Shown: positions 17,197 through 33,552 of the stretch, one piece after another | Position numbering within the stretch: the first letter of the stretch is position 1 | How the letters are laid out: each line of letters starts with the position of its first letter | Source of the DNA: Candidatus Saccharimonadota bacterium | GTDB lineage: Bacteria; Patescibacteriota; Saccharimonadia; CAILAD01; BJGX01 | Direction: 5' to 3' | DNA length: 33,598 bases | Assembly (NCBI GenBank): GCA_009691435.1 | Contig: SICO01000004.1 | Coordinates: 1 to 33,598, forward strand | Notes under the pieces: generated by a model | What the model was told of the DNA's origin: nothing | What the model saw: the letters and a program-made list of their open reading frames with translations, nothing else | The model's database searches: none | Made by a program: the position numbers and the translations under genes

Positions 17197-19500
17197 TTAT
17201 TTAGTACTTTTTTTGCCACGGCGTTTAGTTTTAGTAGGAGCAGTGGCAAGGATTTTTTTTGCTTGTTCGTGCGTTACGCTTTGAGGTTTAGTCCCCTTTG
17301 GTATCTTGGCATTCTTCTTGCCATCAGTAATGTAGGGTCCGTAGCGGCCATTTAAGACCTTCACTCCGTCGCCAAAATCAGCGATGTTTTTCTCGGCCTC
17401 CTCAATCAGCTTGGCTTGATATAAATCTAGAGCTTCTTCGATGGTAATGGTTTGGGGGTCGAGAGGCTTAATAGATACAAATAGCTTGTCGACTTTAATG
17501 TATGGTCCAAAGCGACCAGCATTGGCCATTATATCCTGGCCATCCTTAGTTTTGCCGACGGTCCTAGGCAACTTAAACATTTCTAGCGCTTGCTCTAAAG
17601 TCACGGTTTTGATCTTAGCCCCTGCTGGCATCGGTGCAAAACGGGGCTTATCGGTCTCGTCTTTAGTCAAGCCCATTTGTAGCATTGGTCCGTAACGACC
17701 AAAACGCGCTATTATCGGCTTACCAGTTTTAGGGTCAGCACCAATCTCACGAGACTGCGCTGCTTCACCTCTTCCGATATCAACCGACAATTCTATGAGC
17801 TTATGAAAAGGAACATAAAAGTCCTCTAGCATTTTATTGCGTTGTAGTTTGCCATCAGCAATCAAGTCAAATTCTTGTTCAGCCTTGGCGGTGAAATCAT
17901 AATCAACGACTCTATCGAAATGGCCTGTCAAAAAATCACTGACCACTTCTCCACTGGGGGTCGGCACAAGCTTACCTCGATCCGAGCCAGTCTTCTCCTG
18001 CACAATGGTCCGCTTAAGTTCATCGTCTTGGAGTGTCAAAACAATCGTATCGCGTGGCGTGCCCTCATCCTCGCCCTTAATAACGTAGCCCCTGAGTTGG
18101 ATAGTATCTATAATAGTGGCATATGTCGATGGCCTCCCTATGCCCAGCTCCTCGAGCTTTTTTACTAGGCTTCCTTCACTATAACGAGCTGGCGGTCGTG
18201 CAAAAATCTGCTTGGCGGTGGCAGTTGCGTAGTTCAGGCTATCACCAGCTTTGACCACTGGCAAAATGTCATCAACCTTTTTATTAGCACCATAGACTTT
18301 CAAGAAACCATCGAAAATTATTATTTCTCCCTTCGCTACTAACAGCGCATCATTTTTTGAAATATTAATAACAATGGTCGTCTTTTCGAGTTTGGCCGGC
18401 GCCATTTGGCTAGCCAGGGCTCGGGAGCGAATTAGTTGGTAGAGCTTTTGATTGTAGCTATCACCACTGGCGACTTGCTGCGTAAAGTCGGTTGGGCGTA
18501 TCGCCTCGTGTGCCTCCTGGGCACCGCTCGACTTAGTTTTGAAAGTTCTATGCTGATGGTAAGTTGGGCCGTACTCGGATTTAATGTATTTTTCCATCTG
18601 ACCCAGAGCCTGGCTACTAAGCTTAACAGAATCAGTTCTCATGTAGGTTATCCTACCTTCCTGGTAGAGCTTTTGAGCCGACGCCATAGTGGCTTTAGCA
18701 CTAAAACCCAGCCGGCTGTTGGCTTCTTGCTGCAAGGTGCTGGTTGTGAACGGCGGCCCTGGGTTGCGAGTGCTGGGGCTAGTAGTGACGTCGGCGATGG
18801 TAAATGTCGCACCAATCAGGCTTTCCAGGAAAACCTGGGCTTTGCTTTCGCTGTCAAATTTACTGGGCAGCTCGGCTTTGATATCTGCTCCATCAACACT
18901 AAAAATAACCACTACCTTAAATGATGTGCTCCCCTCAAATGCTTCAATCTCGCGCTCACGCTCCACCAGCAAGCGCACAGCTGGCGACTGAACTCTTCCG
19001 GCCGATTTGCCACCAGGTACTTTTTCCCAGACTACAGGTGATAATTCAAAACCCACTATCCTGTCGAGTATTTGCCGGGCCTGTTGAGCCTGCACCAAAT
19101 CCATATCAAGCACTCGAGGATTTTTGACAGCCGACTCAATAGCATCTTTAGTTATTTCATGGAATACAATGCGCTTGGTGGTAGTCGGGTCGAGCTTTAA
19201 GACTTCACAGAGATGCCAAGCAATCCCCTCTCCTTCGCGGTCTTCATCGGTAGCCAGCCAGACCTGCTTGCCGCTGGCGGCTTTCTTGAGCGCCGTGATG
19301 GTCTTCCTTTTGTCTGGATCCACCTCGTAGCTAGTAGCGAAGCCAGCCTTAACATCAATAGCATCGCCACCATCCTTGCTTTTTTTGGCGATTGAGCGAA
19401 TATGACCCATGCTACTGAGTACTTCAAAATCACCACCGAGGTATTTCTTGATAGTATTAGCTTTGGCCGGAGATTCAACTATAACTAAGTTTTTAGGCAT
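17197..19500 (-). CDS. topA: DNA topoisomerase I
   Basis: LVIVESPAKANTIKKYLGGDFEVLSSMGHIR; LATDEDREGEGIAWHL; GRITYMRTDS; C-terminal GRYGPYI repeats. Confidence 0.97.
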   Translation of the reverse strand: MPKNLVIVESPAKANTIKKYLGGDFEVLSSMGHIRSIAKKSKDGGDAIDVKAGFATSYEVDPDKRKTITALKKAASGKQVWLATDEDREGEGIAWHLCEVLKLDPTTTKRIVFHEITKDAIESAVKNPRVLDMDLVQAQQARQILDRIVGFELSPVVWEKVPGGKSAGRVQSPAVRLLVEREREIEAFEGSTSFKVVVIFSVDGADIKAELPSKFDSESKAQVFLESLIGATFTIADVTTSPSTRNPGPPFTTSTLQQEANSRLGFSAKATMASAQKLYQEGRITYMRTDSVKLSSQALGQMEKYIKSEYGPTYHQHRTFKTKSSGAQEAHEAIRPTDFTQQVASGDSYNQKLYQLIRSRALASQMAPAKLEKTTIVINISKNDALLVAKGEIIIFDGFLKVYGANKKVDDILPVVKAGDSLNYATATAKQIFARPPARYSEGSLVKKLEELGIGRPSTYATIIDTIQLRGYVIKGEDEGTPRDTIVLTLQDDELKRTIVQEKTGSDRGKLVPTPSGEVVSDFLTGHFDRVVDYDFTAKAEQEFDLIADGKLQRNKMLEDFYVPFHKLIELSVDIGRGEAAQSREIGADPKTGKPIIARFGRYGPMLQMGLTKDETDKPRFAPMPAGAKIKTVTLEQALEMFKLPRTVGKTKDGQDIMANAGRFGPYIKVDKLFVSIKPLDPQTITIEEALDLYQAKLIEEAEKNIADFGDGVKVLNGRYGPYITDGKKNAKIPKGTKPQSVTHEQAKKILATAPTKTKRRGKKSTK

Positions 19501-19611
19501 TTATATTGTTACCATTTGATTATGCTAATGTTTAATTGATAATTTTGCAAATATCCTAAGCTTGGATAAGTAGCAAACTATAACCGACAACAGCTTGTTT
19601 TGTCAAATTTA

Positions 19612-19652
19612 GTAAAAATTATGGGGCTCGGTGATATTATCCACCGAGCCCC
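19612..19652 (-). terminator. Rho-independent terminator of the minus-strand ncRNA
   Basis: GGGGCTCGGTG-gataatat-CACCGAGCCCC then ATAATTTTTAC on reverse strand. Confidence 0.75.
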
Positions 19653-20002
19653 TAGCTCCTTGGTTAAACTGCAGTATTTAGCAGTTGTCATGTTTGGAGT
19701 GACGCTCCCTAGTAATTACAAGGTCGTTGTCGTAGGAGTGGTAAACTCCATTAGGAGAGATCGACACACACACTCCCGCAATCTATCGCAGGAGTCTACC
19801 AGTGGCGCCCATGAGCAATCACTAGCTAATACGTAAACGGTCAACCATGGTTAGCAGACAGAGGATGATTACTCCACAGGCCCTGTGGGGCAACTGTCTG
19901 CTTACTTTTACCCAGTAGATCGCGTTAAGGGCTGGTAGACCATCGGGGGTGAAAGGTTAAAGTCCCCCTTTGTTTTCGTATTATTTACCAAGGAACAATT
20001 AC
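19622..20002 (-). ncRNA. Candidate structured ncRNA (~380 nt), unidentified family
   Basis: Reverse-strand promoter TTGATA-N17-TATAAT (20037-20009); closing helix 19987-19996/19655-19664; long-range 9-bp helix 19932-19940/19794-19802; nested hairpin 19853-19902; 11-bp terminator 19623-19652 followed (reverse strand) by AUAAUUUUU. Confidence 0.75.
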
Positions 20003-20008
20003 GAGCAT

Positions 20009-20037
20009 ATTATAATATATATTACTATGATTATCAA
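20009..20037 (-). promoter_or_regulatory. Promoter TTGATA-N17-TATAAT for the minus-strand ncRNA
   Basis: Reverse complement reads atcTTGATAatcatagtaatatatatTATAATatgctcg; exact 17-nt spacer. Confidence 0.75.
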
Positions 20038-20040
20038 GAT

Positions 20041-20892
20041 TTAGGTTTGAACCCAACTCCCGGCGCCTAGGTTTCTAATTTTACCCGTTATTTCCATCAA
20101 ACTAATGATTGAGGCGAGGTTTATGGCGTCAATTTTTGTTAGGTCTATTAGCTGCTGGGAAGTAAGTGACTGCTTGCTAAGTAGTTCTAATATCATGGCC
20201 TCTTGCTTACTATCGGCTCGGGGTTTTTTCTTGACAAGCTTAGGACTAATAAAGCCCAGTAAAGCCAGTACATTGGCAGCATCAGTGACTAAATAAGCAC
20301 CATTTCTTATCAGGTTATTAGGCCCAGCCGACCTAGGGCTACTAATGTTGCCAGGCACCGCCATCACCATTCTATTAGCTTGTAGGGCAAAATTGGCAGT
20401 AATTAAACTCCCCGAAGAAGCATCAGCTTCAGTTACAACGACAGCCATACTAAGCCCAGCAATTATCCTATTACGTGCTGGGAAGTTAGATTTATAGGGC
20501 TCTGTGCCAGATGGGTACTCGCTAATTACTGCTCCGCCCGATTTAATAATTGCTTCAGATAATCCAGTGTTACATCTAGGGTAGGGTTGGTCTAGCCCAC
20601 AGCCCAGGACAGCCACCGTTGAGCCACCGGCTTCAAGCGTAGCCTGATGGACAAGCGTATCAATACCTAGAGCCATCCCACTGACAATACAAAACCCAGC
20701 TTTCGCCAGATCACTAGCTAGCCGAAAAGTCACCTGCTGCCCATAGCTAGTTGGCTTCCTAGTGCCAACAATTGCGACCATTGGTAGTTCAGGAATTTTG
20801 CCTTTAACAAAAAGGCCTTTTGGTGGGCTGGCAATATCCCGGAGTGAATTCGGAAAAGTATTGCTATTATACTTAATATATTGTATATTCAT
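20041..20892 (-). CDS. dprA: DNA-processing protein DprA (Smf)
   Basis: MVAIVGTRKPTSYGQQVTFRLASDLAKAGFCIVSGMALGIDTLVHQATLEAGGSTVAVLGCGLD; VVVTEADASSGSLITANFALQANRMVMAVPGNI. Confidence 0.95.
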   Translation of the reverse strand: MNIQYIKYNSNTFPNSLRDIASPPKGLFVKGKIPELPMVAIVGTRKPTSYGQQVTFRLASDLAKAGFCIVSGMALGIDTLVHQATLEAGGSTVAVLGCGLDQPYPRCNTGLSEAIIKSGGAVISEYPSGTEPYKSNFPARNRIIAGLSMAVVVTEADASSGSLITANFALQANRMVMAVPGNISSPRSAGPNNLIRNGAYLVTDAANVLALLGFISPKLVKKKPRADSKQEAMILELLSKQSLTSQQLIDLTKIDAINLASIISLMEITGKIRNLGAGSWVQT

Positions 20893-32515: not shown

Positions 32516-33412
32516 TTACTTTGCCCATCTCCAGCTATTTGATACTTCTTTTAATAGTGAGCTACTGCTATTGCTATTCTTAGTTACAATATTAATATTA
32601 AAAATACTAACTTTATCATCACTTCCTGGGGTTACTGAATATTCCTTTGGTGAAGTAGTCCAAATTATGTCCGCGTACTCATCACCTCTAGATAGTGAGT
32701 ATTGATAGGCCTTTCTGCCATCTAGAGTAGTTTGATTTTGGCTAGCTAGGGTACCGCCGCTCGTCGCTATTTGCGCATCATAAATTTTGATTATCTGATT
32801 TAAATAATCATCCTTGTCTACACTAATATCATCAACGGGGGCTCCCTTAACAATTACCGCTTGTCCCTCAGAATCTTTACCATCAATTATTATCATTTCG
32901 AACCCAAGATTACAATCCGTATTGTCGCCAACTTTGACAAATTTTTTAGACAACTCCAATGTATAGCATGGTGTTGTAATCTTTTGCTTACTGGTCGCTT
33001 GAATAATAAAATAACCGACAAGGATCACCCCAACTAGAGTAAATACTGCTGAGATCACAATTGCTATTGTCGCAATGGCGTTTTTGTTGCCGGCCTTTTT
33101 ACTTTTAGATTGCGCCACCACGCCCAGCACAAAACCGACGAATGGAATAAATGACAGGGTAATGGCGATGATTGCCAAAATCTTACCGGGGTCAGTGCTG
33201 GTCGCTGCTACATTGCCAGGCATCACAGAAGGGCCAGTCGCCGCTGGTTGCAATGGGGATGGTGTAGGTATTGCTGGCGCAGGCGCAGGATCAGGCGCAG
33301 GAACAGGCGCAGGAACAGGCGCAGGAACAGGCGCAGGAACAGGCGCAGGAACAGGCGCAGGAACAGGCGCAGGATCAGGCGCAGTTGGCTGGTTTTGGCC
33401 TTCAGGTTTCAT
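32516..33412 (-). CDS. DUF4190-like membrane protein with N-terminal (PAPV)n repeat and extracytoplasmic domain
   Basis: APDPAPVPAPVPAP...; KILAIIAITLSFIPFVGFVLGVVAQSKSKKAGNKNAIATIAIVISAVFTLVGVILVGYFII; start refined to MKPEGQN at 33412. Confidence 0.75.
   Translation of the reverse strand: MKPEGQNQPTAPDPAPVPAPVPAPVPAPVPAPVPAPVPAPDPAPAPAIPTPSPLQPAATGPSVMPGNVAATSTDPGKILAIIAITLSFIPFVGFVLGVVAQSKSKKAGNKNAIATIAIVISAVFTLVGVILVGYFIIQATSKQKITTPCYTLELSKKFVKVGDNTDCNLGFEMIIIDGKDSEGQAVIVKGAPVDDISVDKDDYLNQIIKIYDAQIATSGGTLASQNQTTLDGRKAYQYSLSRGDEYADIIWTTSPKEYSVTPGSDDKVSIFNINIVTKNSNSSSSLLKEVSNSWRWAK
33276..33384. repeat. 12-nt in-frame tandem repeat (gcgcaggaacag)n encoding PAPV units
   Basis: Six ggaaca-type units bracketed on both sides by ggatca-type variants. 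Confidence 0.95.
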
Positions 33413-33552
33413 AGTAGTCTTTCTTATTATGCTATTAATATACCAATAATACCACAGGCATGCAACGCTGGGCATCCAGTATAAGAGTCTAGAAAAAACA
33501 AACATAGCTGTTATAATGAATTACAATTCTATTAAATAACAGAGGTCATGAT

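Follow-up and report, generated by a model that had tools for sequence, protein, structure and literature searches.

A functional structured RNA gene almost certainly exists in the interval between dprA (20041-20892, minus strand) and topA (17197-19500, minus strand) of the window analyzed here, a stretch of 33,598 nts that constitutes contig C24 of the 560-kb genome G000. Both TopA and DprA place this genome with Saccharibacteria (class Saccharimonadia). The RNA very probably belongs to an undescribed family, a judgement bounded by the searchable literature and by unpublished models. It is a new family within a known kind, the orphan large structured bacterial RNAs, where it is filed because placing it in a kind of its own would require a demonstrated mechanism. 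With moderate confidence, the complete reading is that of an independently transcribed, non-coding structured RNA of an undescribed family that acts in trans. The original prediction of an independent minus-strand structured RNA outside recognized families is supported by the lack of an Rfam match together with covariation. The body of the RNA comprises about 345 nts, to which the terminator is added. Features of the locus are as follows:

20009-20037, minus strand: sigma-70-type promoter, TTGATA-N17-TATAAT, matching 11 of 12 consensus positions
19613-20002, minus strand: gene of the structured non-coding RNA, spanning about 390 nt with its terminator counted, with the start inferred from the -10 box
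19987-19996, minus strand: 5' strand of P1, GUUCCUUGGU, pairing with ACCAAGGAGC over 10 bp
19825-19986, minus strand: domain A (P2-P5), common to all four genera according to R1 model matches and covariation on seven sequences
19945-19968, minus strand: P3 hairpin with a pyrimidine-rich loop (CUUUAACCUUUCA)
19929-19941, minus strand: 5' strand of the core, GGUC-U-ACCAGCCC, comprising P4 and the start of the P4.1 hairpin
19854-19901, minus strand: P5, a variable apical stem-loop (GCAGACAG/CUGUCUGC)
19839-19847, minus strand: 3' strand of the core, UGGUUGACC, the 3' side of P4
19687-19826, minus strand: domain B (P6-P8 and a hairpin), with conservation of sequence and structure limited to genus g1
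19773-19794, minus strand: P7 hairpin, CUCCUGC/GCGGGAG, kept in the genus
19687-19708, minus strand: GGAG-CGUCA-CUCC hairpin, almost unchanged within g1, for which a GUCA/UGAC pseudoknot is possible
19667-19686, minus strand: variable 3' hairpin ahead of the 3' strand of P1
19655-19664, minus strand: 3' strand of P1, ACCAAGGAGC, pairing with GUUCCUUGGU
19623-19652, minus strand: intrinsic terminator stem-loop, whose 12 counted pairs include 9 G-C, with a T tract running to about 19613
19577-19606, minus strand: TTGACA-N18-TATAGT, a separate promoter for topA that lies past the RNA terminator and is not part of the RNA

The family genomes compared with the window genome comprise three more members of its genus g1 (G001, G002, and G003) and nine genomes in seven other genera. 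A DNA search detected G002 as a 93% copy, together with fragments from G001 and G003. When the DNA preceding topA was read in all family members, one and the same layout emerged in the four g1 genomes and in G007 (g5), G008 (g6), and G010 (g8). A model of the 5' domain (R1, covering P2-P5), which was built from the four g1 sequences and run with no filters, located the RNA where expected outside g1, with E values of 7e-5 (G010), 1.7e-4 (G008), and 5e-3 (G007). Six orthologs are thus known beyond the window genome, three in g1 and one in each of the three other genera. All seven members, which represent four genera of one Saccharimonadia family, lie in the dprA-topA interval, with a single copy per genome at this one conserved place.

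The transcription unit itself is well preserved. Both a promoter and a terminator had been predicted on the minus strand; both are present, and the promoter spacing, P1, and the terminator are kept in all seven orthologs. The 17-nt spacer is exact in each of them (7/7), with 9-11 of 12 box matches, and the RNA start, as delimited by us, lies 4-6 nt from the -10 box in every member. The terminator hairpin is located 0-2 nt past P1, or abuts or overlaps the end of P1, in 7/7. The helix of 10 bp that was proposed to join the two ends of the RNA was also recovered, measuring 10-12 bp in all seven. Compensatory change is evident in P1, which reads GUUCCUUGGU/ACCAAGGAGC in the window, GUUCUUCAGAU/AUCUGAAGAAU in G001, and CCCAUGGAAA/UUUCCAUGGG in G008. 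The -10 region of the RNA gene (ATATATTATAATATGC, window 20000-20020) nearly equals that of the RNase P RNA gene in the same genome (L115), a similarity hinting at a promoter type for stable RNAs that the two genes may share. Because of this resemblance, the promoter is expected to be strong and would give a stably expressed RNA.

Comparison of the orthologous intervals, which had been suggested as a check, revealed strong covariation over seven genomes in four genera. When the four g1 sequences were aligned with plain MAFFT, RNAalifold predicted 88 pairs, 19 of which show compensatory double changes. In the 5' domain of all seven sequences, 93.4% of cells are standard pairs, double changes occur at 19 of 33 pairs, and the covariation score is 0.505, with the rows of G007, G008, and G010 fitted to the g1 model, which favors the structure, and the four g1 rows not fitted. 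As a control, the partner strand was slid by 1-3 columns, whereupon no more than 48% of cells were paired, at most five pairs had double changes, and the score did not exceed 0.107. Domain B was examined in the four g1 sequences, where 96.5% of cells are paired and four pairs show double changes. It was not found in G007, G008, and G010 using model R3, although one helix of this model is misregistered by one column, which makes the result weaker evidence. With regard to the strand, G.U cells far outnumber A.C cells (35 vs 6) in the counted pairs, and the functional strand is therefore the minus strand. The same argument had been made from a single U.G pair in P1, which is real, and it is borne out across the counted pairs.

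Folding energies are consistent with these results. The minus-strand minimum free energy (MFE) is -150.1 kcal/mol vs -107.4 +/- 6 for dinucleotide shuffles (z = -7.1), and the plus-strand fold has a z-score of -4.8; values for three divergent members are -7.1, -5.9, and -6.9. The letters conserved among the seven sequences make a junction, namely (GCUAnGG), ACCAGCC, GG(G)U(U)AA, and AUGGU, and they are found in this junction and in helices, not in one exposed seed. CCAGCC is kept in six of the seven members and is UAUCAGCC in G008. Two elements, a local ACCA/UGGU helix and a GCC../..GG(U) hairpin, explain the ACCAG segment in 7/7. Although the window and G002, which is 93% identical, both have the complementary strands of the 9-bp long-range helix (GUCUACCAG/CUGGUAGAC) proposed in the original prediction, each of the two strands is altered in G001 and G003, so that this helix is not conserved. 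The proposed nested hairpin at 19853-19902 is real and corresponds to P5, though it is variable among members, and the predicted 7-bp CUCCUGC/GCGGGAG hairpin is kept within g1. The loop sequence of P3 is conserved within g1 and pyrimidine-rich in the other members. In domain B, the GGAG-CGUCA-CUCC hairpin is followed by AAAnAUGAC, and the combination is almost invariant in g1. It is possible that a GUCA/UGAC pseudoknot forms in the g1 RNAs as modeled here; because all eight pairs are invariant in the four sequences, this pseudoknot can only be inferred.

No match was found among 4227 Rfam families, either in the whole window at curated thresholds or in the interval at E<=10. An IRES_mnt match in the interval at E<=10 is on the wrong strand and was rejected as chance. 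The Rfam search, also suggested beforehand, therefore assigned no known family to the locus, even at this relaxed level. The searchable literature on non-coding RNAs of Saccharibacteria and Patescibacteria describes no such RNA and contains no non-coding RNA family particular to these groups. The gap had been described as devoid of a credible ORF; in agreement with this, none of the ORFs of the interval is conserved in relatives, and a small protein product was rejected since no reading frame is conserved.

Among the large structured RNAs of bacteria, raiA/ModT (RF03072) gave no covariance-model match at the locus. It is a growth-transition regulator (PMC11706538) with a compact fold determined by cryo-EM (PMC11751092). 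Like the new RNA, it is independently transcribed and non-coding, has a closing P1, a multihelix junction, and pseudoknotting (a possible feature of the new RNA), and is thought to act in trans. However, raiA/ModT has about 210 nt, very high sequence conservation, and a distribution of >2500 species of Bacillota and Actinomycetota, whereas the new RNA has 330-400 nt, low sequence conservation, and a range of one Saccharimonadia family. The folded core of raiA/ModT has two pseudoknots; in the new RNA, one possible pseudoknot, GUCA/UGAC, was noted, and it is invariant in g1. Covariance-model matches at the locus were also lacking for the ornate RNAs OLE, ROOL, and GOLLD, which cryo-EM has revealed to be RNA-only homo-oligomers (PMC12286853). 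These are likewise large, multidomain, and separately transcribed, and mostly of unknown function; unlike them, the new RNA is smaller and has no Rfam match and no phage or plasmid match. If confirmed, it would be another orphan structured RNA beside raiA/ModT, OLE, ROOL, and GOLLD.

The genomes of Saccharibacteria, and of Patescibacteria at large, are tiny; those of the carriers, which are ultra-small and probably host-dependent, measure about 0.4-0.7 Mb. A 390-nt RNA gene whose promoter, fold, and terminator are kept in such genomes must pay its way. As to what it does, we lean slightly towards a lineage-specific large RNA with a compact core that is needed by its carriers as a trans-acting ribonucleoprotein scaffold, an RNA-only assembly, or a ribozyme. 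The RNA would act in trans as a folded molecule, and its most likely role, by analogy with what is thought of OLE or raiA/ModT, would be that of a scaffold or regulator of a ribonucleoprotein. The conserved junction may then represent a binding or active center, and the 3' domain a faster-changing accessory.

A trans-acting base-pairing regulator, which would expose the pyrimidine-rich P3 loop (ACCUUUCA; GCCUCCUUUGC in G007) to the ribosome-binding sites of mRNAs, is unlikely, although this loop is pyrimidine-rich in 7/7 and the closed P1 with its many hairpins resembles the layout of RNAIII. RNAIII of Staphylococcus aureus, a long RNA with a regulatory role, has paired ends as well as hairpin loops rich in pyrimidines, and its C-rich loops target the ribosome-binding sites of mRNAs. 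The new RNA shares the paired ends and a pyrimidine-rich hairpin loop, but it differs in having no conserved small coding sequence, and Shine-Dalgarno targets are rare in the window, where very few of about 30 gene starts have a recognizable Shine-Dalgarno sequence. In addition, the letters with the strongest conservation lie in the paired junction and not in the loop, and by inspection AAAG in the joiner between P4.1 and P5 could be a partner for the loop CUUU in g1 instead. Two points favor a folded trans-acting RNA over an antisense regulator: conservation is located in the junction instead of an exposed seed, and the window has few Shine-Dalgarno sites, which would be the natural candidates for pairing with the pyrimidine-rich P3 loop.

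It is improbable that the RNA is a cis-acting leader or attenuator, which would control topA or the next gene through conditional read-through of its terminator. The RNA is indeed located upstream of topA in all seven carriers, on the same strand, and ends in a terminator. However, topA has its own promoter past this terminator, and a similar promoter precedes topA in family members that have no such RNA. Nor was any alternative terminator/antiterminator pairing seen, as P1 and the terminator co-exist. In G001 and G003, moreover, another gene with its own upstream region intervenes. This gene between the RNA and topA (L014/L015) is membrane-protein-like, and the window is without it. Phylogenetic trees of the two neighbors also bear on the leader reading: TopA groups g1 with other Saccharimonadia lineages, apart from G007, G008, and G010, whereas DprA groups g1 with the other carriers. 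Because the two trees place g1 differently, it appears from these sequences that topA of g1 (window 17197-19500) was probably replaced in place while the RNA was retained, and such a replacement without RNA loss argues against a leader.

The distribution of the RNA is narrow. No such RNA was seen upstream of topA in G004, G005, G009, G011, and G012, whose topA-upstream DNA was read, or, by inspection, in the topA-upstream regions of six other Saccharibacteria picked by TopA similarity. In G006, topA starts at a contig edge, and a covariance search of the whole genome found no copy. Searches with models R1 and R2 over 39 relatives, 198 + 396 genomes of the class, and 389 genomes of the phylum recovered family members only, apart from weak matches; the weak phylum match (E = 0.007, one genome of 389) agrees with chance-level expectation and was discarded. 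On the DprA tree, the seven carriers form one clade with support of 99/99, and no non-carrier falls in the sampled clade. Presence of the RNA requires one change on this tree, and the pattern needs only one origin. The finding is solid and new, but its distribution is narrow; the restriction to four genera (g1, g5, g6, and g8), with sister genera (g2, g3, g4, and g7) that have no such RNA, makes its role testable by comparison.

Sequence divergence was assessed by comparing the window with G002, in which the RNA has an identity of 92% and the flanking dprA and spacer 98-99%. The RNA thus evolves more rapidly than the adjoining DNA, an atypical behavior for a housekeeping RNA. The G002 RNA folds at -155.8, compared with -135.8 +/- 7.2 (minimum -152) for a set of 100 randomly mutated window RNAs having the same substitutions. 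Based on the single-sequence MFE structure of the window, 10 pairs are broken in G002 vs 11.7 at random, which is no significant shortage. In the consensus fold of the two sequences, 29 of 33 differences fall in unpaired columns, the fold having been chosen to fit both. A rate so high relative to the flanks, as well as the patchy distribution in the class, would suit an RNA of a mobile element or of a defence/counter-defence locus that became fixed in the lineage. This origin has a low probability, given that the RNA has one copy in one conserved place, that one gain on the DprA tree suffices, and that its neighbors are housekeeping genes; furthermore, phage and plasmid collections yielded no DNA match, and a search of IMG/VR contigs for the genus motif was negative.

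A divergent housekeeping RNA (RNase P RNA, tmRNA, or 6S RNA) is very improbable. The likeness of size and closed ends to RNase P RNA and tmRNA, which had been pointed out in the original prediction, is genuine, and class A RNase P RNA (RF00010) and tmRNA (RF00023) are multidomain as well; identity with either is excluded, since there is no sequence or covariance match at the locus and both were found above cut-off elsewhere in the same genome. The model of RNase P RNA, including CR I (GAGGAAAGUC), matched nothing here even at E<=10, and the genuine gene is at G000:C16:16407-16998 (154.6 bits, cut-off 100). For tmRNA, with its tRNA-like domain and tag frame, neither ARAGORN nor Rfam gave a match at the locus; the genuine gene is at G000:C16:284-679 (129.2 bits, cut-off 47). 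6S RNA (RF00013) is also an independently transcribed structured RNA, but it forms one long hairpin with a central bubble, whereas the new RNA is multibranched; it had no covariance-model match at the locus, and carriers possess separate 6S-like loci near RNase P (E = 2e-8 in G008, 2e-5 in G007, and 2.4e-4 in G003). Finally, the notion that the interval holds no functional RNA, only a chance of composition or a long terminator or spacer, is scarcely credible: single-sequence folds alone prove nothing, but the z-scores, the compensatory changes, and the promoter spacing and P1 kept in 7/7 argue against it.

Several additional observations were made on these RNAs in the genomes analyzed. The RNase P RNA of g1 (G000:C16:16407-16998, L115; L116-L118) contains three long hairpin insertions with nearly identical ends (CCCAGCACC...GGUGCUGGG), one of them located at P12 and the others ahead of CR I (the P3 position) and CR V. 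At the three sites, the insertion copies are similar to one another, a pattern suggestive of gene conversion or of repeated insertion events. G007 possesses a second tmRNA-like gene (L120, G007:C3:20700-22200; 101 bits), and about 170 nt upstream of it there is a match resembling a type III hammerhead (41.9 bits, cut-off 48.5). G009, G012, and G014 likewise have multiple tmRNA matches that exceed the cut-off. In Saccharimonadia, 6S-like RNAs occur at a similar distance from RNase P (L136 1344-1503, L138 5603-5773, and G008:C6:28563-28727), and those of several genomes score just below the Rfam cut-off. Elsewhere in the window, an ORF at 32516-33505 has consecutive PAPVPAPVPAP repeats and, after these, a hydrophobic segment.
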